Translations under genes and position numbers: made by a program
DNA from: Catenulispora sp. EB89
Lineage (GTDB): Bacteria; Actinomycetota; Actinomycetes; Streptomycetales; Catenulisporaceae
Assembly: GCF_041261445.1 (NCBI RefSeq)
Contig: NZ_JBGCCU010000009.1
Location: 248,001-312,000 of the forward strand
DNA length: 64,000 nucleotides
Direction: 5' to 3'
Notes under the pieces: generated by a model
Told to the model about the DNA's origin: nothing
The model's input: only the letters and a program-made list of their open reading frames with translations
The model's database searches: none
In this document: in pieces, positions 5,043 through 63,736 of the stretch
Layout of the letters: every line of letters begins with the position of its first letter
Numbering within the stretch: position 1 is the stretch's first letter

Positions 5043-7211
5043 CGGAAGTCGGCCGTCCCACCACCGATCGTGCAGCGCGGGAACGAACTGCAGCGCGGCC
5101 GCGACGACGTGATCGGCCACGCCGCTGGCCGAGACCGGATTGCCGGCACCGGCTTTCCAGAACAGGTCGTGGCTTTCGCGCCACGCCCGCAGATAAGCCG
5201 GATCCCCGGTGCTCGCCGAGCAGTAGGCCAGCAGTCGCGCCAGCGTGTCGTGGTGCCAGTACGGCGGCGGGGTCGGCAGTGGCAGAACCTTGCCGGTCCG
5301 CAGATCCTCGTGGGACCGGCGACCGTCGTAGTCGTGCTGGTAGGACCAGCCTCCCTCGCCGCGTTCGGCCAGCAGCCAGGCGCCGAACCGGAGCACGGCG
5401 TCATGGCACGGCCCGAGGCCCGCCTCGTCCGGCCGCACGCCGTCCGGCAGGAGTTCGAGTCGGTCCAACACGCCTCCGAGGGCCAGCAACCCCATCCACG
5501 GCTTGGTGATGTACCCCATCCAGGCGTGCATGCCCGCGCCGCCGCCCTGGTCGCCGAAGGTGCCGTTGGCGCGCTGGCTCGCCACCACGGTCTGCGCGCC
5601 CTCGTCGGCCAGCGCGAGGAAGTGCTCGTCGCCGAAGTAGCGGTGGAGCAGGATCGCGGAGCGCAGGTAGCACGCGTCACGGCCGACGGCGAGCCGCGGC
5701 CAGGAGTTCAGGTGCGTCGCGTGCGCACTGTCCACGACGGCTCGTGCCGTCCGCAGCAGGAACGGGTCACCGGTCTCCAGATAGGCGGCGATCGTGCCCT
5801 GCATCCGGCTCATCGGCAGCGACAGCGCGTTCGGCGGGTGGCCGTGCATCCGCATGAGTTTCGCGGCGTGGTCGACCGCGATGTCGGTGATCGCGTACGC
5901 GGCGCGCAGCGCGTCCTGGTACCCGTCGCCGGTCCGCCACGCGTCGAGCAGCAGCGCGTACGGAAGCTCGCCCTCCCAGCCGGGTTCGTAGCGCGGGCCG
6001 TCGGGCAGGTCCCATCGCTGGAGGTCGTTGCGCGGGACGGTTCCGTCCTCGAACCCGCCGCGCACCATGTGATCGCGGACCCAGCGCCGTGCGGCCCGCA
6101 GGCTCCGGTCGTCGTCCGCGCTCGTGACCGGTAGTACGGGTCGGGGGGTGAGCTCTTCGCAGAGGCCGTACCACCAGTCCGGCGCGAGATAGCGGACCAC
6201 GACCGGTGAGCGGTCCAACAGGCTCAGTGAGAAACGCAGCGCCCGCGCCATTCCGCGCGGGAAGACCCGGTCTTCGGCCCGGAAGAGGAACGGGTCACCG
6301 GTCTGCTCGTCGGGGCAGGATCCGCCGAACACCTCGACGCCCGCGTACGGCTGGAGGACCACCCAGCCGTCTTCCCTCCTGATGTCGCCGGGCCGCGCAG
6401 GCGTCGCCAGCCGGGCGACCTCGGCGAAATCGAAGCGCGCGGAGCCGACCGTGAGCAGGCGGGACGAGCCGTCCCAGCGCTCGGGCAGGTCAGGCGGATC
6501 AGCCGGCCCCTCCATCCGGATGCCCAGCACCGGGACGACGTCTTCGAGCGCCAGCCCGTCGTCCACGAACCGCGCGTTGACGTGCCGGGCAAAGACCTCG
6601 CACACGCCGTTGCGGTGCAGCCGCACGTGGATGCTCGCGTTGAGCCAGTTGTGGCGATGGACGAAGGTGTTGGTGTAGCCGGGCTGCTCCCGGTGGTCCG
6701 CGCCGGTGAGGTGCCGGTGCGCGATCACGCCGGCCATCTCGACGGTGCGGCGTTCCTCGGTCTCCTCGATCACGACCAGGCGGCAGGCCTCCCACCAATG
6801 CACCGTCCCGCCGGTCCGCAATCCCATCGCGAGGCCGACCGACCGGTCGCCGAACCCCAGTCGCAGCAGACTGCGTTCCCAGACGTAGCCGGGCTCGGTG
6901 CTCCGGGCGAAGACCTCCATCGCCGCCCACGGAGTGGAGCCGTCGCCGCCGGCGGCCTCCCCTCGAACAACCGGGAGCATCGCCGGCACAGCCCCGGCCT
7001 CCCCGGCATCCGCCGCGAGAATCAGCCGGCGCGGGAACCCGGTGCCGGGCCACCGCCCGAGCCGCAGCGCGTCGGTGGGCTGCCCGCCGAGCGAGACCGG
7101 GACCGGTTCGGCCCGCGGCCACGGCAGCGAGGTGAGCAGCAGCCCTGCTTCCTGCTCGTCGCCCACGCGGGTCAGGGGCAGCTGGTCGACCAGCCCCAGC
7201 AGATCGCTCAT
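5022..7211 (-). CDS. large putative alpha/alpha-toroid carbohydrate-active protein, cytoplasmic
   Basis: A 729-residue protein without signal peptide. The ATG at 7211 shares its A with the stop of the dehydrogenase gene upstream (TGATG), which fixes the start. Residues about 1-370 are beta-rich; residues about 380-729 are helical with spaced Trp, His and Gly motifs (GYITKPWMGLLALGGVLDRL, GGWSYQHDYDGR, PYWHHDTLARLLAY), the look of a six-hairpin or alpha/alpha-toroid glycosidase or lyase such as heparinase-like or unsaturated glucuronyl hydrolase-like proteins. I do not recognise a specific family or catalytic residues. Coupling to a Gfo/Idh/MocA dehydrogenase suggests that the two act on the same imported glycoside or its product. 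Confidence 0.6.
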   Translation of the reverse strand: MSDLLGLVDQLPLTRVGDEQEAGLLLTSLPWPRAEPVPVSLGGQPTDALRLGRWPGTGFPRRLILAADAGEAGAVPAMLPVVRGEAAGGDGSTPWAAMEVFARSTEPGYVWERSLLRLGFGDRSVGLAMGLRTGGTVHWWEACRLVVIEETEERRTVEMAGVIAHRHLTGADHREQPGYTNTFVHRHNWLNASIHVRLHRNGVCEVFARHVNARFVDDGLALEDVVPVLGIRMEGPADPPDLPERWDGSSRLLTVGSARFDFAEVARLATPARPGDIRREDGWVVLQPYAGVEVFGGSCPDEQTGDPFLFRAEDRVFPRGMARALRFSLSLLDRSPVVVRYLAPDWWYGLCEELTPRPVLPVTSADDDRSLRAARRWVRDHMVRGGFEDGTVPRNDLQRWDLPDGPRYEPGWEGELPYALLLDAWRTGDGYQDALRAAYAITDIAVDHAAKLMRMHGHPPNALSLPMSRMQGTIAAYLETGDPFLLRTARAVVDSAHATHLNSWPRLAVGRDACYLRSAILLHRYFGDEHFLALADEGAQTVVASQRANGTFGDQGGGAGMHAWMGYITKPWMGLLALGGVLDRLELLPDGVRPDEAGLGPCHDAVLRFGAWLLAERGEGGWSYQHDYDGRRSHEDLRTGKVLPLPTPPPYWHHDTLARLLAYCSASTGDPAYLRAWRESHDLFWKAGAGNPVSASGVADHVVAAALQFVPALHDRWWDGRLPLPDADA

Positions 7212-8245
7212 CAGAGCTTGACGGTGTCGCCGGTACGCGCGGACTCGTACAGCCCCAGCACCGTGGCCAGCACCCGCCGTCCGTCGGCCGTGCCGATCGC
7301 CGGCGGCCGGCCGTCGCGGACGGCCGCCACGAAGTCCCGGTACTGGGCCTTCGCCGCGCCGTAGATGTCGATGGCGTCGCCGCCGGACAGCGCGGAGTGC
7401 TCGGGGTAGGCGGCCGACGCGGCGACCCGCTCGGCACCCGGCCGGTCGGCGGTCGTGCGCATATACCCGAGCTCCCGCTCGCCGACCTGGGCGCTGCCGA
7501 GGTCGCCGTACACCGCGACCCGCGAGTCGCGTCCCGGGTAGGCCGCGGTGGTCGCGCTGACCCCGGCGACGGCGCCGGAGGCGAACCGGACGGTCCCGAC
7601 CAGCGTGTCCTCGACCTCGATCCGCTCGTGGGCGAGCTGTCCGGCCTGCGCCTGCACCGCGACCGGCTCCCCCAGGAACCACAGCAGCAGGTCCAGGGAG
7701 TGCACGCCCAGCGTCATCAGGGCTCCGCCACCCTCGACAGCCGCCGTGCCGCGCCAGGCCGTCGAGTCGTAGTAGGACTGCGGCCGCCAGCTCGTCGTCT
7801 CGGCGCAGCCGGACGTGAGCCGTCCCAGATCGCCCGCGTCGATCGCCGCCTTGACCCGGACCGCCGCGGGCTCGAAGCGGCGCTGGCTCATCACGCCGAC
7901 GGTGAGCCCGGTCCGGCGCTCGGCCTCGATCACCCGGTCGGCGGCGGCCAGGCTGATGTCCAGCGGCTTCTCGACCAGCACGTGCTTGCCCGCTTCGAGG
8001 GCGGCCACGACCGCGTCGGCGTGCAGGCCGTGCGGGATGCTGACCGTGACGGCGTCGATGTCCGTGCGCCGGCACAGGTCTTCCAGTCCCTCGACCGCTT
8101 CGCAGCCGAGCTCCCCGGCGACCGCGCCGGCCCGGCCGGGGGCGGCGTCGGCCACCGCGACCAGCCGGGCCCGGTCGGGCATCGAGGAAATCACCTTGGC
8201 GTGGACGACGCCGTACGAGCCACAGCCGAGCACTCCGAATCGCAT
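7211..8245 (-). CDS. Gfo/Idh/MocA-family NAD(P)-dependent oxidoreductase
   Basis: A 344-residue sugar or cyclitol dehydrogenase. The N-terminal Rossmann fold has the dinucleotide motif GCGSYG (residues 7-12) and the family EKP motif (VLVEKPLDIS, about residue 97). A conserved GVHSLDLLLWFLGEP segment sits at the substrate end. It leads an operon whose next gene starts on the same TGATG overlap. Upstream (8263-8301) there is an AT-rich patch with a putative IclR operator. Family is certain; whether it oxidises a glucoside, inositol or amino-sugar derivative is not. Confidence 0.9.
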   Translation of the reverse strand: MRFGVLGCGSYGVVHAKVISSMPDRARLVAVADAAPGRAGAVAGELGCEAVEGLEDLCRRTDIDAVTVSIPHGLHADAVVAALEAGKHVLVEKPLDISLAAADRVIEAERRTGLTVGVMSQRRFEPAAVRVKAAIDAGDLGRLTSGCAETTSWRPQSYYDSTAWRGTAAVEGGGALMTLGVHSLDLLLWFLGEPVAVQAQAGQLAHERIEVEDTLVGTVRFASGAVAGVSATTAAYPGRDSRVAVYGDLGSAQVGERELGYMRTTADRPGAERVAASAAYPEHSALSGGDAIDIYGAAKAQYRDFVAAVRDGRPPAIGTADGRRVLATVLGLYESARTGDTVKL

Positions 8246-44907: not shown

Positions 44908-44922
44908 GCGGGACGAGAACAA

Positions 44923-44936
44923 GGGACTTTCGGCCC
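44923..44936 (+). promoter_or_regulatory. dormancy (DosR) box
   Basis: GGGACTTTCGGCCC matches GGGNCTTNNGNCCC exactly, 69 bp upstream of the response regulator start, implying autoregulation. Confidence 0.72.
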
Positions 44937-45005
44937 GTCCCGTCGAACCCGCGGCACCCTATTGTTCGAAACAGGACGAGCGACCGGTTCACAGGAGGCG
45001 GCACC

Positions 45006-45674
45006 ATGGACGGCGACAGCGGCGGCAAGATCGGCGTGTTCCTGCTGGACGACCACCAGGTCGTCCGGCGCGGGCTGAAGGACATGCTGGAGGACGAGCC
45101 GGACTTCACCGTCGTCGGCGAGGGCTCCACGGCCGCCGAAGCCCTGGCCCGGGTGCCGGCGCTGCGGCCGCGGGTGGCGGTGCTGGACGTGCGGCTGCCC
45201 GACGGGAACGGCGTGATGGTCTGCCGTGAACTGCGCTCGAAGCTGCCGGAGCTGTCCTGCCTGATGCTGACCTCGTTCCCCGACGAGGAGGCGCTATTCG
45301 ACGCCATCATGGCCGGCGCCTCCGGCTACCTGCTCAAGCAGACCCTCGGAGCCGACCTGGTCGCCGCCGTCCGGACCGTCGCCGGCGGCGAATCGCTGCT
45401 CGATCCGAGGCTCGCGGCCAAGGTGATGGCCAAACTTCGCGCCGCCGACGAGAAAAAGGACCCCCTCTCGCAGCTGACCGCCCAGGAGCACAAGGTGCTG
45501 GACCTGATCGGCGAGGGGCTGACCAACCGGCAGATCGCCGAGCGGATGTTCCTGGCCGAGAAGACCGTGAAAAACTACGTCTCCGCGCTGCTGGCCAAGC
45601 TCGGCCTCACGCGCCGGGTGCAGGCCGCGGTGCTGGTCTCCGAGATCAAGTCCGAGCAGGCGCGACACCACTGA
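45006..45674 (+). CDS. dosR: NarL/LuxR-type response regulator, DosR/DevR-like
   Basis: A 222-residue regulator. The receiver domain has [17 protein letters not shown], the phospho-acceptor D61 in [25 protein letters not shown] and the lysine in GYLLKQTLG. The C-terminal LuxR helix-turn-helix reads [20 protein letters not shown], then [20 protein letters not shown]. Both segments follow mycobacterial DosR closely. Its predicted partner kinase gene is convergent and 63 bp away. Boxes around it make it the probable regulator of the 43-61 kb genes. Confidence 0.9.
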
Positions 45675-45737: not shown

Positions 45738-47453
45738 TCAGTCGTCCAGCGGTACCCGCCACACCAGGACGGTGCCGCCTTCCTCGCCGGGACCGGTCGT
45801 GAACTCCCCACCCAGCGCGGCGGCCCGCTCCGCGAGGTTGCCCAACCCGCTGCGCCGCCCGCCCTCCGGCAACCCGACGCCGTCGTCGGCGACCCGCAGC
45901 GCCAGGAAGCCGTCGGCGGTCGCCACGTCCACCTCGACCTTCGTGGCCTTCGCGTGCCGCGCCACGTTGGACAGCGCTTCGCGGGTGACCGCCAAGGCAT
46001 GCTCGGCCACCGCGTCGGAGACCTCGTAGTCGACGGGTCCGGTGAACCGGACCGCGGGGCTGAAGCCGAGAAGGTCCGCAACGTCCTGACACAACCGCAG
46101 CACCTGCGACCGCAGCCCCGGCACCTCGTCGGTCGTGGCGTGCTCGGACAGCGCGAAGATGGTCGAGCGGATCACCTTGATGGTGTCGTCGAGCTCGGAC
46201 ACGGCCTTGTTGACCCGGTCCCGCACCGCCTGCTTCTCAGTGATCTTCAGCACCGACTGCAACGTCATGCCGGTGGCGAACAGCCGCTGAATGGCCAGGT
46301 CGTGCAGGTCGCGGCCGATACGGTCGCGGTCGGAGTACAGGTTCAGCAGGTCAACGTCGGCACGGCGGTCGGCCAGTTCCAGCGCCACCGCGGCCTGCCC
46401 GCCGACCTCGGTCAGCATGTGGGTGTCGACGGCGTCGAACGGCAGGGCCCCGAACCGTTTGCCGGCGACCAGGACACCCCGGACCTTGCCGGCCGCGCCC
46501 AACGGTGCGATGTAGGCCGGCCCCAGGCCGAGATTCTTCCACACCGGCTGGGGCTCCCGCTCGCCGTCGACCACGGCGTGCCCCGCGCCCGCGACGAACA
46601 CCGAGCCCACCTCGGAGTCCGCGATCGGCAGGGACGTGCCTCGGACCCGGTCCGCGCCGAGGCCCGCGGCGACGTGGACCGTCAGGTTCTCCGACGCGGC
46701 GTCCGGAAGCATCACCAGCACCAGCTCGGCGCCGGCCATGTCCCGCACCCGCTCGACCAGCACGGCCAGCACGTCGCGGCTGTCGGCACCGGAGAGCAGA
46801 CCACGGGTCAGCTCCGCGGTGACCTCCATCCGCCGCTGGCGCCGCTGCGCCTCGTCGTACAGGCGGGCGTTGTCGATCGCCACGCCGGCCGCGGCGGCCA
46901 GCGTGGTCAGCAGGGTCTCGTCGTCGGCGTCGAACTGCGCGCCGCCGTGTTTCTCGGTCAGGTACAGGTTGCCGTAGACCTTGTCCCGGACCCGGATCGG
47001 GACACCGAGGAAAGTCCGCATCGGCGGATGGTTGTCGGGGAACCCGAACGACGCCTCGTGCCCGGCGATGTCCGGCAGCCGCAGCGGCGCCGGATGCCGG
47101 ATGAGCTGGCCGAGCAGCCCCATGCCGGTGGGATACGGCCCGATCGCGTCGATCTCCTGCTGGGACAGGCCCACGGTGACGAACCGCTCCAGGCGGTCGC
47201 CGCGGCCGTCGATCACGCCGAGCGCCCCGTACCGGGCGTCCACCAGCTCGGTGGCGGTGGCGATGATGGTGGACAGCACCTGGTCCAGCTCCAGGCCGCC
47301 GGAAACCGCCAGCACGCCCTGCAGCAGCTGCTGGACCCGGTCCCGGGTCGCCCGGATCTGGGTCACGCGGGAGATGAGCTCGTCCAACAGCTCGTCGAAG
47401 CGCAACTGCGGCAGCAGTGCGTTCCTCGGCTCGTCCGGCTCTCGATCGGCCAT
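45738..47453 (-). CDS. dosS: GAF-GAF sensor histidine kinase, DosS/DevS-like
   Basis: A 571-residue cytosolic kinase. GAF1 (about residues 60-200) includes H142 in NHPPMRTFLGVPIRVRDK, the conserved stretch of the DosS/DosT haem-binding GAF domain; whether this His is the haem ligand cannot be proved here. GAF2 covers about 215-365. The dimerisation box has H384 in GRDLHDLAIQRLFATGM, and the ATPase has EALSNVARHAKA, DDGVGLP and GLGNLAERAAALGG. No membrane segment is present. The start is ATG 47453. It should sense O2, NO or redox state and phosphorylate the convergent response regulator. Confidence 0.9.
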   Translation of the reverse strand: MADREPDEPRNALLPQLRFDELLDELISRVTQIRATRDRVQQLLQGVLAVSGGLELDQVLSTIIATATELVDARYGALGVIDGRGDRLERFVTVGLSQQEIDAIGPYPTGMGLLGQLIRHPAPLRLPDIAGHEASFGFPDNHPPMRTFLGVPIRVRDKVYGNLYLTEKHGGAQFDADDETLLTTLAAAAGVAIDNARLYDEAQRRQRRMEVTAELTRGLLSGADSRDVLAVLVERVRDMAGAELVLVMLPDAASENLTVHVAAGLGADRVRGTSLPIADSEVGSVFVAGAGHAVVDGEREPQPVWKNLGLGPAYIAPLGAAGKVRGVLVAGKRFGALPFDAVDTHMLTEVGGQAAVALELADRRADVDLLNLYSDRDRIGRDLHDLAIQRLFATGMTLQSVLKITEKQAVRDRVNKAVSELDDTIKVIRSTIFALSEHATTDEVPGLRSQVLRLCQDVADLLGFSPAVRFTGPVDYEVSDAVAEHALAVTREALSNVARHAKATKVEVDVATADGFLALRVADDGVGLPEGGRRSGLGNLAERAAALGGEFTTGPGEEGGTVLVWRVPLDD

Positions 47454-50422: not shown

Positions 50423-50992
50423 TCACATAAGCGGCGTCCTGGTGCTGGGGTTCTCGGCGAGCTCGGCGATCGTGTTCGGGACGTGGATCTTGCGCCGGGA
50501 GAGCTCGGTCAGGCCGGTGACGGCCAGGGTGGCCGCGCCGATGCCGAGGAAGGCCAGGCCCAGGCCGGTGACCAGGTAGGTGACCTCCCACGCCTGGTAG
50601 GCGCCCATCAGGGAGCCGCGCAGCGACTCGCCCATGAAGGCGGTCTGCTTCTCGCCGGCGAGCTTGGTGTCGGTGGGGGCGGCCATGGCCGCGGTGGAGA
50701 CCTGGGAGTAGGTCCTGCCGCCGGTGGCCTCCTTGATGTGCGTCTCGATCATGTCGGCGTAGGCCTTGGCCTGCGGGCCGGTGGTGACCTGCCGGCCGGC
50801 GTAGGCGGCCTGGGCGGCCGGCAGGCCCGAGGAGCCCTTGGCCGGGAAGCTGATCAGCTGCTCCGAGAGCTGGCTGGTGACCTCGTGTTGGCCGTGCACG
50901 CCCTCGTAGATCATGACCGGGCCGGCGACGATCAGTGCGACACCGGTGAGGGAGGCGACGCCGGTGGCCAGGGTGCGCGGGGTGATGTTCAT
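50423..50992 (-). CDS. two-helix membrane protein with large extracytoplasmic loop
   Basis: A 189-residue protein: a first span at [20 protein letters not shown], an external region of about 100 residues ([20 protein letters not shown]), and a second span at [20 protein letters not shown]. The layout and the [14 protein letters not shown] segment match a family sometimes mis-annotated as LigA dioxygenase in actinomycetes, from memory. CGGAGG lies 6 nt before the ATG at 50992. It shares a divergent promoter region with phosphoketolase, including a dormancy box. Function is unknown. Confidence 0.75.
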
Positions 50993-51091
50993 GGTGTCCT
51001 CCGTGGACTTCGTCAGGTGTCTGATGCGGTGACACCGAAAGCCTCCTACCTGCGCGACCGCGCCGAACCGGCCATGCGGCGCCTTTCCACC

Positions 51092-51105
51092 GGGCCGAAA
51101 GTCCC
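51092..51105 (-). promoter_or_regulatory. dormancy (DosR) box
   Basis: GGGCCGAAAGTCCC is the exact reverse complement of the box in front of the response regulator gene. It lies 100 bp upstream of phosphoketolase and 99 bp upstream of the divergent membrane protein gene. Confidence 0.72.
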
Positions 51106-51205
51106 CTCTGGACCGGGCCTTGCGCCGCTGCCGGGTCAGGCGCGGTCGATCGACGATGGCCGTGTGGCCACCGACGGCCCGTCCGGAAAGAAAGGTCCTG
51201 TTGCC

Positions 51206-53593
51206 ATGACCATCCACGACCACGCCGTCCACCTCGACTCCGTGCGCCTCGACACGGTCGACCGCTACTGGCGCGCGGCCAACTACCTGGCCGCCGGCCA
51301 GATCTACCTGCGCGACAACGCCCTGCTGCACCGCGGCCTGGAGCCGGCGGACATCAAGCCGAGGCTGCTCGGGCACTGGGGCACCAGCCCCGGCCTGAAC
51401 TTCGTCCACGCGCATCTCAACCGCCTGATCAAGGAGCACGACCTGGACCTGATCACCGTCCTGGGCCCGGGCCACGGCGGCCCGGCCGCGCTGGCCTGCT
51501 CCTGGCTGGACGGCACCTACCCCGACCACTACCCGGACGTCACCCGCGACGAAGCCGGCATGACCAAGCTGTTCGCCGCGTTCTCCGCGCCCGGCGGCGT
51601 GCCCAGCCACATCGCCGCGAACGTGCCCGGCTCCATCCACGAGGGCGGCGAGCTCGGCTACAGCCTGGCGCACGCCTTCGGCGCCGCCTTCGACAACCCG
51701 GACCTGATCGTGGCCTGTGTCGTCGGCGACGGCGAGGCCGAGACCGGGCCGCTGGCCACCTCCTGGCAGAGCATCAGGTTCCTGAATCCGGCCTCTGACG
51801 GCGCGGTCCTGCCGATCCTGCACCTGAACGGCTACAAGATCGCCAACCCGACCGTGTTGGACCGCATCCCGCGCGAACAGCTCGACGGCCTGCTGGCCGC
51901 CCAAGGCTGGGATCCACGCTGGGTGTTCGGCGACGACCCGCACCTGATGCACAACAAGATGGCCGAGGCCCTGGACGGCGCCCTGGCCACGATCCGGCTC
52001 ATCCAGGACGTCAAGCGGAACCCGAAGGCCGCCCAGAACGGCGTCCCGCCGTGGCCGGTGATCATCCTGCGCACGCCGAAGGGCTGGACCGGCCCGCAGA
52101 CCGTGGACGGCGTGCAGATCGAGGGCACGTTCCGGTCGCATCAGGTCCCGCTGGCCGGCGTCCGCGAAAACCCCCAACACCGGCACATGCTGGTCGACTG
52201 GATGAAGTCCTACCGCCCCGACGACCTCTTCGACCACTTCGGCCGGCCCAAGCCCGAGATCCTGACCTGCGTCCCCGACGGCGACGCGCGCATCGGCGCC
52301 AACCGCCACGCCAACGGCGGTGTCCTCACCCGCTCCCTGGAACTGCCTCCGACCGCCGACTACGCCGTCCCGGTCGCCAAGCACGGCGAGACGCTCCACG
52401 AGCCGACGCGGGTCCTGGGCACCTGGCTTCGCGACATCATCGCCGCCGACGCCCCGCACAACACCTTCCGGCTGTTCGGCCCCGACGAGACCGCCTCCAA
52501 CCACCTGGACGACGTCTTCGAGGTCACCAACCGGGTCTGGACCCTGCCCACCAAGCCGACCGACGACCACCTGGCCCCCGACGGCCGGGTCATGGAAGTG
52601 CTCTCCGAGCACCTGTGCCAGGGCTGGCTGGAGGGCTACCTGCTCACCGGCCGACACGGGATGTTCTCCTGCTACGAGGCCTTCATCCACATCATCGACT
52701 CGATGCTGAACCAGCACGTAAAGTGGCTCAAAACCGCGCGGGCGCTGCCCTGGCGGGCCCCGGTGCCGTCGTTGAACTACCTGCTCACCTCACATGTGTG
52801 GCGCCAGGACCACAACGGCTTCTCGCACCAGGACCCCGGGTTCCTGGACCACGTCGCCAACAAGACCGCCGACGTGGTGCGGCTGTACCTGCCGCCGGAC
52901 GCCAACACCCTGCTGTCCGTCGCAGAGCACTGCCTGAACAGCCGCGACCTGGTCAACGTGATCGTCGCCGGCAAGAACCCCAGCCAGGACTGGCTCTCCC
53001 CCGAGGACGCGCTGCTGCACTGCGAGCGCGGCCTGGGCATCTGGGACTGGGCCGGCACCGAGGACGACTTCGCCACCGAACCGGACGTGGTGCTGGCCTG
53101 CGCCGGCGACGTCCCCACCCTGGAGGTCCTGGCAGCCTCCCAGCTGCTGCGCCAGCACCTGCCCGGACTGCGCGTGCGCGTGGTCAACGTCGTGGACCTG
53201 ATGCGCCTGCAACCCGAATCCGAACATCCGCACGGCCTGCCCGACGCCCAGTTCGACGCGATCTTCACCGTCGACAAGCCGGTCATCTTCGCCTTCCACG
53301 GCTACGCCTCCCTCATCCACCGCCTGGCCTACCGCCGGCACGGCCACGCCAACCTGCACGTGCGCGGCTACAAGGAGCAGGGCACCACGACCACGCCGTT
53401 CGACATGCTGGTCCGCAACGACATGGACCGCTTCCAGCTGGTCTGCGACGTCATCGACCGGGTCCCGCGCCTGGCGCCGAAGGCCGCCACGGTGCGGCAG
53501 GTGATGACCGACGCCCGCGCCCGGCACCGCGACTGGATCGTCGAACACGGCGAGGACCTGCCGGAAATCCGCGAATGGACGTGGACGGCATGA
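51206..53593 (+). CDS. xfp: xylulose-5-phosphate/fructose-6-phosphate phosphoketolase
   Basis: A 795-residue TPP enzyme that splits xylulose 5-phosphate (or fructose 6-phosphate) with phosphate into acetyl phosphate and a triose (or erythrose) phosphate. Signatures are [69 protein letters not shown] and the TPP motif [15 protein letters not shown]. Full length for the family. The ATG at 51206 follows AAAGGTCC. The next gene overlaps its stop by 4 bp. No acetate kinase gene is nearby. Confidence 0.96.
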
Positions 53594-56295
53594 CCGGAAC
53601 CGCACCCGTCACCAGGCCTGCGGCCCCGGCCGGCGAAATCGTCCACGCGCTGCTCACCGACGGCGCCACCGTGTCGATCCGGCCGACCACGCCGCAGGAC
53701 CTCGACGGCCTGAACGCGATGTTCGCCGGGCTGTCCCCGGAGAGCCTGCGCATGCGGTTCTTCGCCTCCGGCAGCGCCGCCGGCCGCAGCGCCGCCCAGC
53801 GGTTGTGCGAGCCACACCCGGACCGCATCGCCATGGTGGCGTCGGTCCGCCGCGGTGAGGGCGAGGAGATCGTCGGCGAAGGCGAGGCCTGGCGTCTGCG
53901 CGCTCACGCCGACGCCGCCGAGGTCGGCTTCACCGTCGCCGACGGCTGGCGCGGCCGCGGCATCGGTACCCTGCTGCTGGAACACCTCGCCGACGCCGCC
54001 CGCGCCATCGGGATCCGGACCTTCGTCGCCGAGACGCTGTCGGAGAACCTGGCCATGAAGCAGGTCATCGCCTCGGCCGGACTGCACCACAGCGCCACCT
54101 TCGAACACGGCGGCACCGTCTTCCACGAGATCGACCTCGCCGAGGACGACGCCTACCTGGACGTGGTCGCCGACCGCGAGTTCGCCGCCAGCGCGGCCTC
54201 CCTGCAGCCGCTGTTCCGGCCACGCGGCGTCGCCGTGGTCGGCGTCGGGCGCCGGCCCGGCGGCGTGGGCCGGGCGATCCTGGACCACCTGGTCACCGGC
54301 GAGTTCGACCGGCCGCTGTTCGCGGTGAACCCGCACGCGGACGAGATCGCCGGCGTGCCATGCGCACACTCGATCGAGCTGCTGCCGGATCAGGTGGACC
54401 TGGCAGTCCTGGCGGTGCCGCCGGACGCGTTGGTCGAGGCGGCGATCGCGTGCGGGCGGCACGGAATAAGAGCCCTGACCGTGGTCACCTCCTCGGTGCT
54501 GAAGTCGGTGGGCACGACGCTGAGAACGGTGTGCCGCCGGTACGGCATGCGCCTGGTCGGCCCCAACGGCCTGGGCGTCGCCTCCTTCGGAACCGATATC
54601 TCGATGGACGCCACGTTCGGGCCGCACACGCCACTCGGCGGCACGGCCGGCGTGGGCGTGCAATCCGGCGGCGTGGGCATCGCCATCCTGGACCACCTGT
54701 CCCGGCTGGGCATCGGCGCCGGCTCCTTCGCCTCGCTCGGCGACAAGGCCGACGTCTCCGGCAACGACCTGCTCGCCTGGTGGTCCGCCGATCCGGCCAT
54801 AAAGCTGGTGCTGCTGCACCTGGAATCCTTCGGCAATCCGCGCAAGTTCGCCCGCTACGCGCGCCGCGTGGCCCGCACCAAGCCGGTGCTGGCCGTCATG
54901 GCCGGACGCTCGGCGGCCGGATCCCGAGCCGCCGCCTCGCACACCGCCGCGGCCGTCACCCCCGGCATCACGCGGGAGGCCCTGTATCGGCAGGCCGGCG
55001 TCATCGCCACACGCTCGGTCGCCGAGCTCGTCGAGGCCGCCGCGTTAGTCCGGACCGGGCTGCTGCCGGCTGGACGCCGCATCGCGGTGGTGTCCAACGC
55101 CGGCGGCACCGGGGTCCTGGCCGCAGACGCCTGCGCCGAGGCCGGCCTCGCCGTCCCCGAGTTCAGCGACGCGCTGCGGGAGCGTCTCAGTGCCCTGCTG
55201 GGCCCGGCCGCCGCCTGTGCCAATCCGGTCGATGCCGGGGCGGGGGCGAGCGGGACGGCGCTGCGTGACGCGGTGGAGACGGTCGCCTTGTCCGGCGAGG
55301 TAGACGCCGTGCTCCTGCTGCTGGTCCCGACGGCGCTGGCCGACTTGTCGCCGACGCTCGCGGTGGACGCCCGGACCGGGGCGATGCCGGTGGTCGCGGT
55401 GCTGGTGGACCAGGCCGCCGGAGTCGAGACCGTAATGGGCGCCGACGGGCGGTTCCTGCCGTGTTACGGCGACGCCGAGACTGCGGTCAGAGCCCTGAGT
55501 CACGCCTGCGACTACGCGGAATGGCTGCGCCGCCCCGGCGGCGAGGTCCCGCAGCTGCCAGGCGTCCGCTCGCAGGATGCGGCACGCCTGGTCTCGCTGT
55601 TCCTGGCCGCACACCCCGAAGGCGGATGGCTGCCCCCGGACCGCGCCGCCGATCTGCTGGCCTGCTACGGCATCCACTGCGCGCGCCTGGTGCTGGCCAC
55701 CGACGAACAGACCGCCGTCACCGCCGCGGCGGTCTGGGACGGCCCGATCGCGATGAAGGCGTACTGGCCGGAGCTGGTGCACAAGAGCGACGTCGGCGGC
55801 GTGCTGCTCGGCCTGTCCGGGCCCGACGAGGTCCGCGACGGCTGGCGGCGGCTGCACGAGCGCTTCGGCGAGCAACTAGCCGGCGTGGTGGTGCAGGAAA
55901 TGGCGCCGGACGGGGTCGAACTGCTGGCCGGCGTCGACAGCGACGCGGTCTTCGGACCGCTGGTCGCCTTCGGTATCGGCGGTACGGTCACCGACCTGGT
56001 CGCCGACCGCGCCTACCGGCTGGCCCCGCTGACCGGCGCGGACGCCGACGAGCTCGTCCGTTCCACGCGTGCGGCCCGGATGCTGGCCGGCTTCCGGGGC
56101 CGCCCCGGCGGGGACGTGGCGGCGGTGCGCGATGTGCTGTCGCGACTGGCGCTGCTGGCCGCCGAGCAGACCTGCGTGGCCGAAGCCGAGATCAACCCCC
56201 TGATCGCCACCCCGGACGGGGCCATGGCCGCCGACTTCCGGATCCGGGTGGAACCCCGCACACCGACCGATCCCTACCTGCGCCGCCTCCGCTGA
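53590..56295 (+). CDS. GNAT acetyltransferase fused to ADP-forming acyl-CoA synthetase (Pat-like)
   Basis: A 901-residue fusion. Residues 1-190 are a GNAT domain ([40 protein letters not shown]). The rest is an NDP-forming acetyl-CoA synthetase: CoA-binding fold ([20 protein letters not shown]), ligase domain with the phospho-His region [11 protein letters not shown] (the usual Gly after SHT is Ala) and [17 protein letters not shown], and a C-terminal ATP-grasp ([43 protein letters not shown]). Bacterial proteins with these domains are often protein lysine acetyltransferases. If the synthetase half is active it could make ATP from acetyl-CoA. It overlaps xfp (ATGA). Confidence 0.9.
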
Positions 56296-56332
56296 GTCGG
56301 CACAGATTCCGGTTACGAGCTAAGGAGTCATC

Positions 56333-57208
56333 ATGAATCGCACCGTCATCGTCGGCTACGACCAGAGCCCGTCCGGCGACCGCGCGCTGGCTCAGGCTGG
56401 ACGCGAAGCCGCCTGGCGCGACACAGCCGTCACCGTGGTCACCGGTTACCACACGGTCGCCGTCGCCTCGCCGATGGGCTACCTGCCGACGGACTTCCAG
56501 ACCGCGGTGAAGGACGCCGCCGACAAGATCGCCGGCGACGGCGTGCAGTGGCTGCGGAACCGCTACCCGGGGATGCCGGTCGACGCGAAAATCATCGCCG
56601 GGCCCACCGCCGACGCCATCGCCGAGGCCGCGCGCGACGCCGACCTGCTGGTACTCGGCAACCGCGGCCGGGGCGGCTTCGCCGGCCTGCTGCTCGGCTC
56701 GGTGTCGATGCGCACCCTGACGCTGGCCTCGTGCCCGACTTTGGTGGTGCGCGGCACGCCCCGAGAGCCCGCCGACACGGTCGTCCTCGCACTCGACATC
56801 GAGGACGTCGGCGACCCGGTCGTCGAGTTCGCCTTCGCCGAGGCGGCACTGCGCGAGGCCAGGCTGAGGGTGGTCAACGTCTGGGACCTGGGCTGGGCAG
56901 GCTCCGCCGACCCAGACTCCCCCGACGACCTGGACACGGCCAAAGCCCAGGCGGTCGCAGACATCCGCAAGGCGATGGAGACCCAGCTGAACCACTGGCA
57001 GGCGAAGTACCCCGACGTCCGCCTGGCCGTCGAGGTCGCGGACGGCACGCCGAGCGCGGTGCTGACCCGCGCCACCGTGGACGCCGACCTGATCGTCGCC
57101 GGCGCGCACCGGCGCGACGACGGCCGTCTCGGGATGCGGCCCGGCCCGATCGTGCACACGCTGCTGCACCACGCGGACTGCCCGGTCGTCGTGGTCCCGC
57201 GCGGGTGA
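56333..57208 (+). CDS. universal stress protein, two UspA domains
   Basis: A 291-residue tandem Usp protein. Domain 1: VIVGYDQSPSGDRALAQAGR and LVLGNRGRGGFAGLLLGSVS. Domain 2: VVLALDIEDVGDPVVEFAFA and IVAGAHRRDDGRLGMRPGPI. AAGGAG lies 6 nt before the ATG. It is 37 bp after the acyl-CoA synthetase gene and probably in the xfp operon. Confidence 0.92.
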   Translation: MNRTVIVGYDQSPSGDRALAQAGREAAWRDTAVTVVTGYHTVAVASPMGYLPTDFQTAVKDAADKIAGDGVQWLRNRYPGMPVDAKIIAGPTADAIAEAARDADLLVLGNRGRGGFAGLLLGSVSMRTLTLASCPTLVVRGTPREPADTVVLALDIEDVGDPVVEFAFAEAALREARLRVVNVWDLGWAGSADPDSPDDLDTAKAQAVADIRKAMETQLNHWQAKYPDVRLAVEVADGTPSAVLTRATVDADLIVAGAHRRDDGRLGMRPGPIVHTLLHHADCPVVVVPRG

Positions 57209-58456: not shown

Positions 58457-58470
58457 GTGCCGAAAGTCCC
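58457..58470 (-). promoter_or_regulatory. near-consensus dormancy (DosR) box
   Basis: Minus-strand GGGACTTTCGGCAC differs from the consensus at one base. It lies 98 bp upstream of the kdpD-like start. Confidence 0.55.
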
Positions 58471-58568: not shown

Positions 58569-60593
58569 ATGACGATCCAGACACATCCCCGTCCCACCGC
58601 GGCAGACGCGACAGACGCGGCGCACGCCCAGCACAGCCGCGGGCGCCTGCGCATCTACCTCGGTGCCGCGCCGGGTGTCGGGAAGACCTACGCGATGCTG
58701 GCCGAAGGGCAGCGGCGTCGGGCGCGGGGCGCCGACGTGGTGATCGGGCTGGTCGAGCCGCACGGCCGCAGGCTGGCCGCGGCGATGGCCGAGGGCCTGG
58801 AGACGGTGCCCCGGCGCACGGCGGTCCACGCCGGCGCCACGTTCACCGAACTGGACGTGGAAGCCGTGCTGGCCCGCGCACCGCAGGTGGCGCTGGTCGA
58901 CGAACTCGCGCACAGCAACGTGCCCGGCAGCCGGAACGCCAAGCGCCGGCAGGACGTCGAGGAACTGCTCGCAGCCGGGATCGACGTGGTGGCCACCGTG
59001 AACATCCAGCACCTGGAGTCGCTGGCCGACGTCGTGGAGCAGATCACCGGCGTGGTGCAGTACGAGCGGCTGCCCGACGCCGTCGCGCGCGCCGCCGAAC
59101 AGGTCGAGCTGGTCGACATGGCCCCCGAGGCGCTGCGGCGGCGCATGGTCCACGGCGACGTCTACCCGCCGGATCGCGTCGAGGCGGAGCTCACCCACTT
59201 CTTCCGGCCGGGGAACCTGACGGCGCTGCGCGAGCTGGCGCTGCTGTGGGTCTCCGACCGCGTCGAGGAGGGCCTGGAGCGGTACCGGGCGGACCACGCC
59301 ATCGCCAAGCCCTGGGAGACCCGCGAGCGGATCGCCGTGGCGCTGGCCGGCGGGCCGGAGGGCGTTGCGCTCATTCGGCGGGCCGCACGGATCGTGACCC
59401 GTACCCCGGGTGCGGAGCTGCTGGCCGTGCACGTCGTCGTCGACGACGGCCCGGCGTCCCGGGAATCCGCGGACCTGGCGGAGCAGCGGCAGCTGGTCGA
59501 GGCCGCCGGCGGCATGTGGCACGAGGTCGTCGGGGAGGACGTGGCCGCCAGGTTGGCCGCGTTCACCCGGGCCTATCAGGTGACGCAGCTGGTCGTCGGT
59601 GGCAGCGGCGCCGGCAGGCTGTCACGGGTGATCGCCGGGCCGGGAGTGGGCTCTCAGGTGCTCCGGCTGGCAGACCACGTCGATGTGCACTTGGTCGCAC
59701 GCGATCAGGCCTCCGGTCAGCCGCCCCGGCAGCGGACACCGAACGGCCGGCGCGCAACGCGGGCCGAGGCCGACGCGGTGAAGGAGCTGGCACTCACCGC
59801 GGTGCGCGGAGGCGGGGTGACCGAGCTGTTGGAGGTCGTCCGCGACCTGCTCGCGCTCGACGCGATCAGCCTGCTGGAACCAGGCCGGTCGATATGGGCC
59901 GGCGAGGGCCTGGAGTCTTCAGCCGACAACACGCCGGCGTGGTACGTCATGGCCGGCGCCGGAGACAACCCCCCGGAGCAGCCGACGGCTTTCACGGTGT
60001 CGCTGGGCTCGGAGGGCCTGCTGCTCGCCGCCCAGTGCGCGAACCTGAACCCGGCCGGCCTTCGGGTACTGACCTCGTGTTCGGATCTGATCGCCGCGGC
60101 GCTCAACGGCATCCTGCGCCCGGGCCCGCTCGCGGAGCAGCCCGGCTCGCCGATCGGACTCGAGTCGGAGGTGTACCTCCGGCCCGTCGACCTGGACGAA
60201 GTCGTCGCCGCGGTCCTGGGCGACCTGGAACCGGGCCACGGGCTCGGCGTAACCCTCGTCGGCGACGTGCCGGACGCGGTCGCCGATGCCGCGCTGCTCA
60301 CCCGCGCCCTCACCGGGCTCGCCGCCCTGGCGCTCCGCCGCAGCCCGAAAGACCAGGCTGCTCGGATCAGCATCCACGCATTGGATGAAACGGTCGAGAT
60401 CACGATCTGCGACGACGGCGAGCGGATGAGCCAGCCGGACGCCGAACCGTCGGTGCGGCTGGCGCGCTCCCTGCTCGACTCCATGCACTGCACCCTCCGG
60501 GTACTCTGCGACGATGCCGGACTCACCGCCACCGCGATCCTGCCGGCGGCGGCACGGACGGCGCTGAAGGTCGGCAGCGGAATCAGCCGCTGA
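58569..60593 (+). CDS. soluble KdpD-like protein with Usp domain and degenerate kinase part
   Basis: A 674-residue protein. Residues 25-235 form the KdpD domain with Walker A GAAPGVGKT (32-40), HAGATFTELDVEAVLAR, LVDELAHSNVPGSRNAKR and VATVNIQHLESL. A Usp domain follows (about 250-375; RIAVALAGGPEGVALI, LVVGGSGAGRLSRVIAGPGV). Unlike KdpD, there are no four membrane helices, no phospho-acceptor His box, and the end (about 520-665) retains only a weak ATPase-like fold (ITICDDGERM). No kdpE or kdpFABC is adjacent. It may be a cytosolic nucleotide or K+/c-di-AMP sensor; this is inference. Confidence 0.8.
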   Translation: MTIQTHPRPTAADATDAAHAQHSRGRLRIYLGAAPGVGKTYAMLAEGQRRRARGADVVIGLVEPHGRRLAAAMAEGLETVPRRTAVHAGATFTELDVEAVLARAPQVALVDELAHSNVPGSRNAKRRQDVEELLAAGIDVVATVNIQHLESLADVVEQITGVVQYERLPDAVARAAEQVELVDMAPEALRRRMVHGDVYPPDRVEAELTHFFRPGNLTALRELALLWVSDRVEEGLERYRADHAIAKPWETRERIAVALAGGPEGVALIRRAARIVTRTPGAELLAVHVVVDDGPASRESADLAEQRQLVEAAGGMWHEVVGEDVAARLAAFTRAYQVTQLVVGGSGAGRLSRVIAGPGVGSQVLRLADHVDVHLVARDQASGQPPRQRTPNGRRATRAEADAVKELALTAVRGGGVTELLEVVRDLLALDAISLLEPGRSIWAGEGLESSADNTPAWYVMAGAGDNPPEQPTAFTVSLGSEGLLLAAQCANLNPAGLRVLTSCSDLIAAALNGILRPGPLAEQPGSPIGLESEVYLRPVDLDEVVAAVLGDLEPGHGLGVTLVGDVPDAVADAALLTRALTGLAALALRRSPKDQAARISIHALDETVEITICDDGERMSQPDAEPSVRLARSLLDSMHCTLRVLCDDAGLTATAILPAAARTALKVGSGISR

Positions 60594-60980
60594 CTGAGCG
60601 TCCCGCTCCCGCTCGCTCGCGGACGGCGCCGCGGCACCGCGGCGCCATCCGGCCCGGCAGATCCAGGACGTTCGGCCCTGGGACGCGCGCACCGACTCCG
60701 ACATCGGCCTGGTGGTCGACGCACGTTCGTCGGACACTCGGCCGGACCGACCGCGCGGGAGCTCGGCACCTACTGGGCGCTGCGCTCGACCGGGCGCCGC
60801 CGTACGCCGTGCCGCCCGCACCCCGATTCGGCGCCGCAGCCGTCCCCGCCAGGTCCGCCGTCGAAGCGATCCTGGAGCACGAAACCGTCGGCGCGTACCC
60901 GACGCACAGCGCGGCCGAGCATGCCGTCGACCGGAGCCGGTCAGCGCGCCCGAGTGCCCGACATCAGTCCCGGTGCGAAG
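60594..60980. other. 387-bp spacer, no intact gene
   Basis: No frame has both ribosome site and domain-like sequence. A stretch near 60869-60935 reads EAILEHETVGAYPTHSAAEH, reminiscent of the start of general-stress 17M-like proteins, and could be a remnant. Confidence 0.5.
60665..60678 (+). promoter_or_regulatory. degenerate dormancy box
   Basis: AGGACGTTCGGCCC has two mismatches to GGGNCTTNNGNCCC. It lies about 300 bp upstream of the aldolase. Confidence 0.3.
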
Positions 60981-61892
60981 ATGACAACCATGGACACCGC
61001 CCAATTCGCCGTGATCCGCTCAACTCCGGGCTTCTTCGCGGCACTCGACCAAAGCGGCGGCAGCACGCCGAAAGCCCTGGCCGAGTACGGCGTGGCCCCC
61101 GACAGGTACACGAACGACGCGGAGATGTACGACCTGGTCCACGCGATGCGGACACGTATCGTAACCAACCCCGCCTTCGACGGGACGCGCGTCCTGGCCG
61201 CCATCCTCTTCGAGCAGACCATGACCCGTGCGGTCGACGGTCTCCCCACCGGGCAGTACCTGTGGGAGAAGAAGCACGTCGTGCCGTTCCTGAAGGTCGA
61301 CAAGGGGCTGTCGGACTCCGAGCACGGTGTGCGGCTGATGAAGCCGATCGACGGCGTCGACGACACGCTCGCCGAGGCGAACCGGCATGGGATGTTCGGC
61401 ACCAAGATGCGTTCCGTGATCGACGACGCGAACCCCGCCGGGATCCAGTCGATCGTCGACCAGCAGTTCGACCTCGCCGCACGAATCGCCGCCGCCGGGC
61501 TCGTCCCGATCATCGAGCCTGAGGTGAGCATCGCCAGCCCGCGCAAGGCGGAGGCTGAGGAGCTGCTGCGCGAGGCGCTGGAGCGGGGCGTCGCCGCGTG
61601 GCGGGCCGACACGCCGGTCATGCTGAAGCTGACCATCCCGACCAGGGTGGCTCTGTACGCGGACCTGGCCGCCGATCCCCGCGTGCTCCGGGTGTTGGCG
61701 CTGTCCGGCGGCTACTCGCGCACCGAGGCGTGCGAACTGCTCGCCCGGGACCCGAGCATGATCGCGAGCTTTTCGCGCGCGCTTCTGGAAGGACTCCGCG
61801 AGGATCAGAGCGAGCGGGACTTCACGGCTCGGCTGGACGCCTCGATCGCCGAGATCTACCGGGCCTCCACGGTGAAGCAGCCGGCCACCTAG
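60981..61892 (+). CDS. class I fructose-bisphosphate aldolase
   Basis: A 303-residue Schiff-base aldolase for cleavage of fructose 1,6-bisphosphate. Motifs are GFFAALDQSGGSTPKALAEY, LFEQTM, VVPFLKVDKGL, LVPIIEPEVSI and the Lys in PVMLKLTIPT, as in the bacterial class I enzymes of Staphylococcus type. ATG 60981 or the in-frame ATG 60990 could be the start; neither has a strong ribosome site. The metal-free enzyme would support glycolysis or gluconeogenesis under stress. Confidence 0.93.
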   Translation: MTTMDTAQFAVIRSTPGFFAALDQSGGSTPKALAEYGVAPDRYTNDAEMYDLVHAMRTRIVTNPAFDGTRVLAAILFEQTMTRAVDGLPTGQYLWEKKHVVPFLKVDKGLSDSEHGVRLMKPIDGVDDTLAEANRHGMFGTKMRSVIDDANPAGIQSIVDQQFDLAARIAAAGLVPIIEPEVSIASPRKAEAEELLREALERGVAAWRADTPVMLKLTIPTRVALYADLAADPRVLRVLALSGGYSRTEACELLARDPSMIASFSRALLEGLREDQSERDFTARLDASIAEIYRASTVKQPAT

Positions 61893-61963
61893 GACGGCCG
61901 TGCACTCGTCCGGCCGGCGCAGCACGGCGTGCGCGACGCCGCCCTGAGGGCTTGGGTGGTCGC

Positions 61964-63736
61964 ATGGACTACACCAGCGGCAACTACGAGGCGTTCGCCC
62001 GGCCCCGCAAGCCGGCCGGCGTCGACGACAAGACCGCCTGGTTCGTCGGGGCCGGTCTGGCCTCCATGGCCGGCGCGGCGTTCCTGATCCGGGACGGGCA
62101 GATGCCCGGCGGCCGGATCACGATCCTGGAGCGGCTCAAGCTGCCCGGCGGGGCCCTGGACGGCATCAAGGAGCCGAAGAAGGGCTTCGTGATCCGCGGC
62201 GGCCGGGAGATGGAGAACCACTTCGAGTGCCTGTGGGACCTGTACCGGTCCATCCCCTCGCTCGAGATCGACGGCGCCAGCGTGCTGGACGAGTTCTACT
62301 GGCTCAACAAGGACGACCCGAACTCCTCCCTGCAACGCGCGACCGTCGAGCAGGGCCAGGACGCGCACACCGACGGCCTGTTCACCTTGAGCGATCGCGC
62401 GCAGAAGGAGATCGTCAAGGTCTTCCTGGCGTCCCGGGAGCAGATGGAGGGCAAGCGCATCGACGAGGTCTTCGGCGAGGACTTCCTGCGCAGCAACTTC
62501 TGGCTGTACTGGCGCACCATGTTCGCGTTCGAGGAATGGCACTCGGCGCTGGAGATGAAGCTCTATCTGCACCGCTTCATCCACCACATCGGCGGCCTGC
62601 CCGACTTCTCCGCGCTGAAATTCACCAAGTACAACCAGTACGAGTCACTTGTCCTGCCGCTCTACCGATGGCTGCTGGACCAGGGTGTGTCGTTCAAGTT
62701 CGACACCGAGGTCACCGACGTCGACTTCGCGTTCGACGCCACGACCGCGCGCAAGCAGGCCTCGCGCATCCGCTGGATCGCCGCCGGCGCCGAGGGCGGA
62801 GCCGACCTGGGCGAGAACGACCTGCTGTTCACCACCATCGGCTCGCTCACCGAGAACTCCGACGAAGGCGACCAGCACACCCCGGCCCGCCTGAACACCG
62901 GCCCCGCCCCGGCATGGGATCTGTGGCGCAGGATCGCGGCCAAGGACCCGGCGTTCGGCCGCCCGGACGTGTTCGGCGCGCACATCCCCGAGACGAAGTG
63001 GGAGTCGGCCACCGTCACCACGCTCGACGCCCGGATCCCGGAGTACATCCAGAAGATCTGCAAGCGCGATCCGTTCAGCGGCAAGGTCGTCACCGGCGGC
63101 ATCGTCACCGTGAAGGACTCCGCGTGGCTGCTGAGCTGGACGGTGAACCGGCAGCCGCACTTCAAGCAGCAGCCGAAGGACCAGATCGTCGTGTGGGTGT
63201 ACTCGCTGTTCGTGGACACGCCCGGCGACTACGTGAAGAAGCCGATGCAGGACTGCACCGGCGCGGAGATCACGCAGGAATGGCTGTACCACCTGGGAGT
63301 CCCGACGGCGGACATCCCCGAACTCGCCGCGAACGCCGCGACCTGCGTCCCGGTGATGATGCCGTACGTGACCGCGTTCTTCATGCCACGCCAGGCCGGC
63401 GACCGGCCCGACGTCGTCCCGGAAGGCGCGGTGAACTTCGCTTTCATCGGGCAGTTCGCTGAGACGACCCGGGACTGCATCTTCACCACCGAGTACTCCG
63501 TCCGCACCGGCATGGAAGCCGTCTACCGACTGCTCGGCATCGAACGCGGGGTACCGGAGGTGTTCAACTCGACCTACGACATCCGCACGCTGCTGGCGGC
63601 CACCAGCCTGCTGCGCGATCGGGCGGTGGTGAACCTTCCGGGGCCCGCGCCGCTGCGCAACCGGTTGCTGAAGAAGCTGGACAGCACGGAGATCGGGGAG
63701 CTGCTCAGAGAGTCCGGACTGATCAGCGAGGATTGA
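61964..63736 (+). CDS. oleate hydratase (MCRA family flavoprotein)
   Basis: A 590-residue FAD enzyme that adds water to the cis-9 double bond of oleic or related fatty acids. The FAD motif is FVGAGLASMAGAAFLIRDGQ; other family segments are GRITILERLKLPGGALDGI, FVIRGGREMENHFECLWDLY, FWLYWRTMFAFEEWHSALEM and FIGQFAETTRDCIFTTEYS. Length is normal. The ATG at 61964 is weakly preceded by GAGGG. It lies 71 bp after the aldolase gene. Confidence 0.95.
   Translation: MDYTSGNYEAFARPRKPAGVDDKTAWFVGAGLASMAGAAFLIRDGQMPGGRITILERLKLPGGALDGIKEPKKGFVIRGGREMENHFECLWDLYRSIPSLEIDGASVLDEFYWLNKDDPNSSLQRATVEQGQDAHTDGLFTLSDRAQKEIVKVFLASREQMEGKRIDEVFGEDFLRSNFWLYWRTMFAFEEWHSALEMKLYLHRFIHHIGGLPDFSALKFTKYNQYESLVLPLYRWLLDQGVSFKFDTEVTDVDFAFDATTARKQASRIRWIAAGAEGGADLGENDLLFTTIGSLTENSDEGDQHTPARLNTGPAPAWDLWRRIAAKDPAFGRPDVFGAHIPETKWESATVTTLDARIPEYIQKICKRDPFSGKVVTGGIVTVKDSAWLLSWTVNRQPHFKQQPKDQIVVWVYSLFVDTPGDYVKKPMQDCTGAEITQEWLYHLGVPTADIPELAANAATCVPVMMPYVTAFFMPRQAGDRPDVVPEGAVNFAFIGQFAETTRDCIFTTEYSVRTGMEAVYRLLGIERGVPEVFNSTYDIRTLLAATSLLRDRAVVNLPGPAPLRNRLLKKLDSTEIGELLRESGLISED

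Follow-up and report, generated by a model that had tools for sequence, protein, structure and literature searches.

A phosphoketolase gene, xfp2, and a gene encoding a GNAT acetyltransferase fused to an NDP-forming acyl-CoA synthetase (ACD) overlap in the 64,000-nucleotide stretch of Catenulispora sp. EB89 DNA analysed here (the window; contig NZ_JBGCCU010000009.1). Judging by its sequence, I regard it as about evenly balanced whether the fusion is an ADP-forming acetyl-CoA synthetase that replaces Pta-AckA in a low-oxygen, DevR-controlled phosphoketolase shunt, with a lysine acetyltransferase attached to it. The observations behind this proposal are the gene order and overlap, the complete set of active-site residues, purifying selection, the recurrence of a regulatory site and a positional exchange with pta-ackA. 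The host genome (11.9 Mb) is Catenulispora-like; its closest named relative is C. pinistramenti, whose fusion is 82% identical.

Phosphoketolase (Xfp) splits xylulose-5-phosphate or fructose-6-phosphate without NAD or oxygen and produces acetyl phosphate, while ACDs catalyse the reversible reaction acetyl-CoA + ADP + Pi <-> acetate + ATP + CoA. The gene pair and the parts of the fusion are laid out as follows.

51206..53593, + strand: xfp2, phosphoketolase, 795 residues (ATG 51206, stop 53591-53593; XFP_N, XFP, XFP_C; NCBIfam phosphoketolase; 8io8, E=0)
53590..53593, + strand: ATGA start/stop overlap of xfp2 and the fusion, 4 nt
53590..56295, + strand: GNAT + NDP-forming acyl-CoA synthetase (ACD) fusion, 901 residues (ATG 53590, stop 56293-56295; Pfam, AlphaFold2, fold matches)
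53647..54147, + strand: GNAT domain, residues 20-186 (P-loop R121-x-x-G-x-G, Glu111; 4nxy, S. lividans Pat GNAT, E=1.7e-19)
54202..55518, + strand: alpha-like synthetase part, with CoA-binding, swinging-loop and ligase domains (4xyl_A, ACD1 alpha, E=1.6e-61)
54940..54942, + strand: codon of His451, putative swinging-loop phosphohistidine, SHTA motif (aligned with 8wzu His256 and ACD1 alpha His254)
55621..56250, + strand: ATP-grasp (beta-like) part (ATP-grasp_5; 4xyl_B, ACD1 beta, E=1.6e-41)
55780..55782, + strand: codon of His731, putative second phosphohistidine (aligned with 8wzu His535)

Active-site residues, selection and fold of the fusion

XFP_N, XFP and XFP_C of xfp2 all score above the Pfam cut-off within one protein of about 800 residues, as in phosphoketolases. 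In the fusion, Pfam places GNAT at about residues 30-165, CoA binding at 212-331, Succ_CoA_lig at 351-486, Ligase-CoA at 499-574 and ATP-grasp_5 at 678-887, i.e. all the synthetase subdomains of an ACD, and both ACD phosphohistidines are present, His451 on the swinging loop (SHTA being residues 450-453) and His731 in the ATP-grasp part. The mechanism of Nmar_0206 likewise employs two phosphohistidines, His535 (ATP-grasp) and His256 (swinging loop), according to the available part of its description (PMC11494057), and Glu412 of the fusion aligns with Glu213 of ACD1 alpha. Nmar_0206 and ACD1 of Korarchaeum have all synthetase subdomains, both phosphohistidines and Glu412 in common with the fusion, whereas the latter adds an N-terminal GNAT and has SHTA for SHTG. 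Its alpha-like part is nearer to ACDs than to E. coli PatZ (1.6e-61 with 4xyl_A versus 3e-39), and so is its beta-like part (1.6e-41 with 4xyl_B versus 6.9e-13); the NCBIfam equivalog cut-offs of named ACDs are not reached (TIGR02717, 335.6 versus 567.15 bits; NF045494, NF045493 and NF045492 also below).

With GNAT at the N-terminus and the synthetase at the C-terminus, the fusion has the type II (class I-alpha) architecture, as this is defined in the accessible text of two reviews (PMC8556138, PMC6456759). In the same text of the former, the synthetase domain of type I and type II enzymes is called inactive, the catalytic His being absent. That statement fits the PatA group and not, to judge from the aligned residues, the window fusion. 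S. lividans PatA, presented as an acetyltransferase with GNAT followed by synthetase in the accessible part of PMC4053389, has the same order of GNAT and NDP-forming synthetase and a GNAT half 34% identical to that of the fusion; yet the rows orthologous to PatA lack His451 and Asn869, both of which the fusion keeps. E. coli PatZ, a type I enzyme and the top fold-search match, is built of the same two modules, but in reversed order and without the loop His in the aligned stretch.

A census of these residues covered 119 of 130 aligned rows (9 Catenulispora, 103 of Streptomyces type and 7 of the PatA group), leaving aside seven duplicate Catenulispora loci, two rows of the genome's own GNAT-less synthetase, and loci L135 (44% identical, SHTA) and L136 (39% identical, loop His absent). 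Glu412, His451, Lys723, His731, Asp806 and Asn869 are kept in all nine Catenulispora copies, position 453 being Ala in seven and Ser in two. The Streptomyces-type group (47-53% identical; some strains appear twice, and other Streptomycetaceae and one Streptosporangiaceae metagenome-assembled genome are included) has Glu412 and His451 in 103 of 103 rows, His731 in 102 and Asn869 in 97. Beside this invariant His451, the GNAT P-loop has His for Arg/Gln at residue 121 in 100 of the 103 rows, the opposite of PatA. In the third group (seven rows, 34-37% identical) the loop His is absent from all five rows that cover the loop, Asn869 is found in none of the seven and His731 in all; these rows are taken as the PatA group because their GNAT is 76-97% identical to 4nxy in the five rows covering it (95-97% in three). 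By this alignment, His451 is lost in PatA orthologues.

Of 27 GNAT-ACD proteins sampled elsewhere in the phylum, 26 have both histidines (SHTG in 21, SHTA in five) and one has lost the motif; chosen as the best-scoring loci of a search with matches in 72 of 296 genomes, the sample is biased towards similarity. SHTA reads, on these alignments, as a lineage variant which occurs in groups keeping the other catalytic residues. The original prediction had seen an ADP-forming synthetase joined to an acetyltransferase, and had wondered whether SHTA leaves the synthetase active. Both halves do look intact by domains and residues; the doubt over SHTA is eased by the kept catalytic His and by the company in which the variant is found, although the change of Gly to Ala (Ser in two of nine) is still odd. 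Given that the histidines which the review holds to be missing are kept here, in the Streptomyces-type group and in other sampled Actinomycetota, there may be a class of bifunctional acetyl-CoA/ATP/acetylation enzymes that has gone unrecognised; the question is directly testable, His being present in some relatives and absent from others. Glu770 was dropped as a marker of activity: Pro replaces it in 100 of the 103 Streptomyces-type rows, yet the residue also varies among other-lineage proteins keeping both histidines and is therefore not diagnostic. As a side observation, a GNAT-less NDP-forming synthetase with SHTG is encoded in the same genome (L122, G000:C7:292612-294690).

Ratios of nonsynonymous to synonymous substitution rates (dN/dS) between the window fusion and L012, L013, L041, L015 and L016 are 0.08-0.18 in the swinging-loop domain, 0.14-0.29 in ATP-grasp, 0.11-0.32 in the ligase domain, 0.22-0.33 in CoA binding and 0.25-0.35 in GNAT. 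The swinging-loop domain lies below GNAT in all ten pairs, second copies included, and is the lowest of the five domains in eight; over the six first-copy pairs the ranges are 0.06-0.18 and 0.17-0.35, respectively. L127, the least constrained, has 0.24 in the swinging-loop domain and 0.65 in GNAT. The catalytic synthetase parts are thus under tighter constraint than GNAT, to which the CoA-binding and ligase domains are about equal.

The AlphaFold2 model of the fusion (mean predicted local distance difference test score, pLDDT, 81.4; predicted template-modelling score 0.76) matches the folds of E. coli PatZ, the 4-hydroxybutyryl-CoA synthetase Nmar_0206, DddX and ACD1. Because pLDDT falls below 50 in loop 450-457, as it does in several CoA-pocket stretches, the geometry of the loop is not readable from the model.

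Linkage of the fusion to xfp and the exchange with pta-ackA

Six of the ten sampled Catenulispora genomes contain the fusion, at nine loci in total, and each of the nine has xfp immediately 5' of it, decayed at two loci (L126 and L015) and almost complete in length at the other seven. The overlap of xfp with the 901-residue fusion, as originally predicted, is the 4-nt ATGA at 53590-53593, and the same junction occurs at eight of the nine loci (the window, L137, L138, L041 = L139, L140, L125, L126 and L015), the exception being L127, with a gap of about 180 nt. The xfp remnants at L126 (about 10470-10228, - strand) and L015 (about 690-1501) carry in-frame deletions, retain the start and the C-terminal end of the gene and still overlap an intact fusion by ATGA; the retention of the overlap despite the decay of xfp argues for translational coupling and for a function of the fusion that outlives its xfp neighbour. 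A first impression that the fusion is split in three Catenulispora genomes was ruled out, L125-L127 each being one continuous frame.

Neither ackA nor pta occurs in the window, at the fusion-linked xfp of the eight distinct Catenulispora loci (L041 and L139 are one contig) or, within the flanks examined, at any of 80 named fusion loci. The eight Catenulispora loci examined for the ordinary xfp1, which is 63% identical, all carry pta and ackA next to it (L121, L169-L173, L175 and L176); the xfp1 loci of G025 and G027 are outside this count, and L174, the second xfp of G023, has neither gene alongside. In the xfp tree the fusion-linked and the pta-ackA-linked genes form two separate clades, each with support of 100/100. 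The xfp2 locus thus resembles the known xfp with pta-ackA shunt in having Xfp as the source of acetyl phosphate, and differs from it in the GNAT-ACD gene that stands in place of the Pta/AckA neighbours and in the clade of its Xfp; a pta-ackA set of the usual kind is also present in the same genome. Hence the claim that the usual acetate kinase partner is lacking holds at the locus and fails genome-wide, as one ackA and a pta lie beside the second xfp, on contig C16.

Two neighbours recur with the operon in Catenulispora. A universal stress protein (USP) gene follows the fusion also at L137, L138, L140, L125 and L126. At L140 (945-2402), L137, L138 and L126, xfp is preceded by a gene for an RNase-like beta-CASP/RMMBL metallo-hydrolase; at the first three this gene touches xfp and is itself preceded by a DevR-like site.

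Beyond Catenulispora, 79 other named fusion loci were compared, of which 16 have an xfp in the flank (up to 8 kb): ten times upstream on the same strand, four times upstream on the opposite strand and twice downstream. The linkage label of the Streptomyces-type rows changes at least seven times in the xfp tree, by starred branches. At seven Streptomyces loci (L048, L049, L071, L080, L081, L096 and L107) the order is xfp-GAPDH-fusion, with about 3 kb more between GAPDH and the fusion at L049; at L080 the GAPDH gene between the two is found at 6808-7821. GAPDH is in the flank of 16 of 80 named fusion loci; the ten unlinked Streptomyces xfp loci and the nine loci L121 and L169-L176 all lack it, as does every Catenulispora fusion locus examined. 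Since Xfp forms glyceraldehyde-3-phosphate from xylulose-5-phosphate, the order xfp-GAPDH-fusion reads as a small pathway.

A candidate DevR/OsdR control region

A DevR-type regulator and a DevS-like kinase are encoded 4-6 kb upstream of xfp2, and one more USP also lies upstream. The features of this putative control region, and the USP gene that follows the fusion, are:

45006..45674, + strand: DevR/DosR-type response regulator (M. tuberculosis DevR 3c3w, E=1.5e-80; next molecule VraR, 4.5e-38)
45738..47453, - strand: DevS-like GAF-GAF histidine kinase (best chain 2vzw, E=1.7e-49; DevS GAF 2y8h, E=1.1e-46)
44922..44937, strand unassigned: DevR/OsdR-like site before the devR-like gene (motif scans, matrix)
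51091..51106, strand unassigned: DevR/OsdR-like site CGGGCCGAAAGTCCCC, 115 nt 5' of xfp2 (motif recurrence, genome rarity)
56333..57208, + strand: USP, two Usp domains (Pfam), beginning 37 nt after the fusion
58457..58470, strand unassigned: copy of the 14-mer with one mismatch before a KdpD/Usp gene (motif scans)

The motif GGGACTTTCGGCCC has two exact copies in the genome, before the devR-like gene and before xfp2, and a one-mismatch copy before the KdpD/Usp gene; with at most one mismatch it occurs at five genome places versus nine for the reversed control pattern, counts which are descriptive, for the motif was picked after being seen in the window. The 14-mer GGGCCGAAAGTCCC precedes the operon at five of eight Catenulispora loci, namely the window, L125 (-131 from xfp), L137, L138 and L140 (about -1.5 kb), which are not five independent observations since L137 and L138 are close relatives; L015 is too short upstream to be judged. 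The 14-mer is consistent with the consensus published for OsdR and with the SCO2347 site (AGGGCCGAAAGTCCCG), going by the part of PMC5069765 available.

Scans of the window gave 70 matches to GGGACNNNNGTCCC with 2 mismatches (98 expected), 10 to GGGNCNNNNGNCCC (8 expected) and 6 to GGGACTTTAGTCCC with 3 mismatches (3.4 expected; 15 of 100 shuffles as high). A matrix built from published OsdR sites reached 14.35 at best in the window; the best sites of 20 random sequences averaged 13.28, with a maximum of 17.4. Upstream of xfp the matrix exceeded 10 at one of 16 Streptomyces-type loci (L078; only 142 nt were covered for L107). Among 400 random 300-mers drawn from the loci under study, 6.25% attain the score of the window site; this null includes regulon DNA. 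Consensus scans of the window alone are at chance; the site, a predicted one, draws its support from recurrence at related operons and from rarity in the genome. The label "hypoxic/DosR" of the original prediction owes itself to the DevR homologue, the DevS-like kinase and the candidate site at 51091-51106; a DevR-type control region, with its regulator, kinase and recurrent 14-mer, is what stands of it, the window scans lending it nothing above chance.

The region resembles the OsdR/DevR regulons of S. coelicolor and M. tuberculosis in its DevR- and DevS-like pair, its USPs and a site like the OsdR site of SCO2347. It differs in that Table 1 of PMC5069765 lists neither a phosphoketolase nor a GNAT-ACD gene as a predicted target, S. 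coelicolor not having been searched for the fusion; the word phosphoketolase does not occur in the main text of that paper. As side observations, the intergenic DevR-like site is common to xfp2 and a divergent open reading frame without Pfam match (50423-50992, - strand), and the gene behind the one-mismatch 14-mer (58569-60593) encodes a KdpD sensor-domain protein with a Usp domain.

The proposed shunt and competing explanations

In the proposed shunt, DevR would bind upstream of xfp2 and control the co-transcribed xfp2-fusion pair as its core. Xfp would split xylulose-5-phosphate or fructose-6-phosphate to give acetyl phosphate, whose acetyl unit would reach the ACD half via the genome's Pta or directly, to be converted there, through ATP-grasp His731 and swinging-loop His451, into acetate and ATP; acetyl specificity and this direction are part of the prediction. 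The fusion alone would in this way do the job of Pta and AckA beside the genome's other xfp. Such a recovery of ATP is suggested by the chemistry of Xfp and ACDs, by the pta-ackA exchange and by the acyl phosphate intermediate proposed for DddX in the accessible part of PMC8163506. The GNAT half, fed by the same acetyl-CoA, would acetylate lysines of target enzymes, AMP-forming acyl-CoA synthetases being the obvious candidates, so that acetate would not be re-activated at ATP cost. The xfp2 operon would then give the fusion a clear metabolic context, that of a Pta-AckA replacement under low oxygen.

A bolder version, improbable in my view, would have the ACD half take acetyl phosphate directly from Xfp, thereby uniting acetate kinase, phosphotransacetylase and lysine acetyltransferase in one DevR-controlled protein. 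Acetyl phosphate would enter at His451, giving acetate and phospho-His and then ATP at ATP-grasp, and would also be passed to CoA to provide acetyl-CoA for the fused GNAT; entry at His451 is conceivable because ACD-type catalysis passes through an acyl phosphate. If true, this would be a low-oxygen switch coupling ATP gain to protein acetylation.

Several findings weigh against the replacement of Pta-AckA by the fusion. The best fold-search E-value belongs to PatZ, a type I enzyme without His in the aligned loop, and SHTG is found in all four ACD-family chains compared (ACD1, PH0766, 8wzu and 9y43) where the fusion has SHTA. Both would suit a type II Pat lysine acetyltransferase whose synthetase half binds acetyl-CoA (or is phosphorylated), senses acetyl status and tunes GNAT without net turnover, acetyl phosphate being a signal and not a substrate; this explanation, the main rival, is the less probable one. 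The domain order of the acetyltransferase PatA and the kept GNAT P-loop and Glu111 agree with it, as does the precedent of Bacillus AcuA-AcsA, an acetyltransferase pair that accepts acetyl phosphate via an intrinsic phosphotransacetylase activity, in the available text of PMC11255334. However, it is not evident why a pure sensor should retain both phosphohistidines and Glu412, and PatA orthologues did lose the loop His; in ten of ten pairs GNAT evolves faster than the swinging-loop and ATP-grasp domains; and it is the P-loop, not His451, that is altered in the Streptomyces-type group.

On the side of the genomic context, the presence of ackA and pta elsewhere in the genome tells against the Pta-AckA replacement as well, and so do L041/L139 (nearest OsdR-like site at -3441), L126 and L127 (a different OsdR-like site at -124), where the exact 14-mer is not found close to the operon. 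Of the 79 other named fusion loci, 63 have no xfp in the flank examined (up to 8 kb), nor has any of the 27 other-lineage loci (only about 1.5 kb), and the fusion persists at the two Catenulispora loci with decayed xfp, so that it has no strict need of an xfp neighbour. The missing or decayed xfp at these loci, together with the several USPs and the DevR/DevS-like pair, would also be expected of an active synthetase for another acid (propionate, branched-chain or aryl) lying in a DevR regulon cluster of USPs, regulators and xfp without a shared pathway, an unlikely explanation since regulon clustering would be less specific than the ATGA overlap at eight of nine Catenulispora loci, the pta-ackA exchange and the order xfp-GAPDH-fusion.

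Each component has been described before: type II GNAT-ACD proteins, Xfp shunts and DevR regulons. Among the matches listed from the open-access literature, no paper connects phosphoketolase to a GNAT-ACD protein, or to DosR in the sense meant here, and none recognises a His-complete type II protein as such, or its operon with xfp or xfp-GAPDH.

Lastly, further downstream in the window (60921-63736), a class I aldolase-like open reading frame (weak, E=2.4e-7) adjoins an MCRA family protein.

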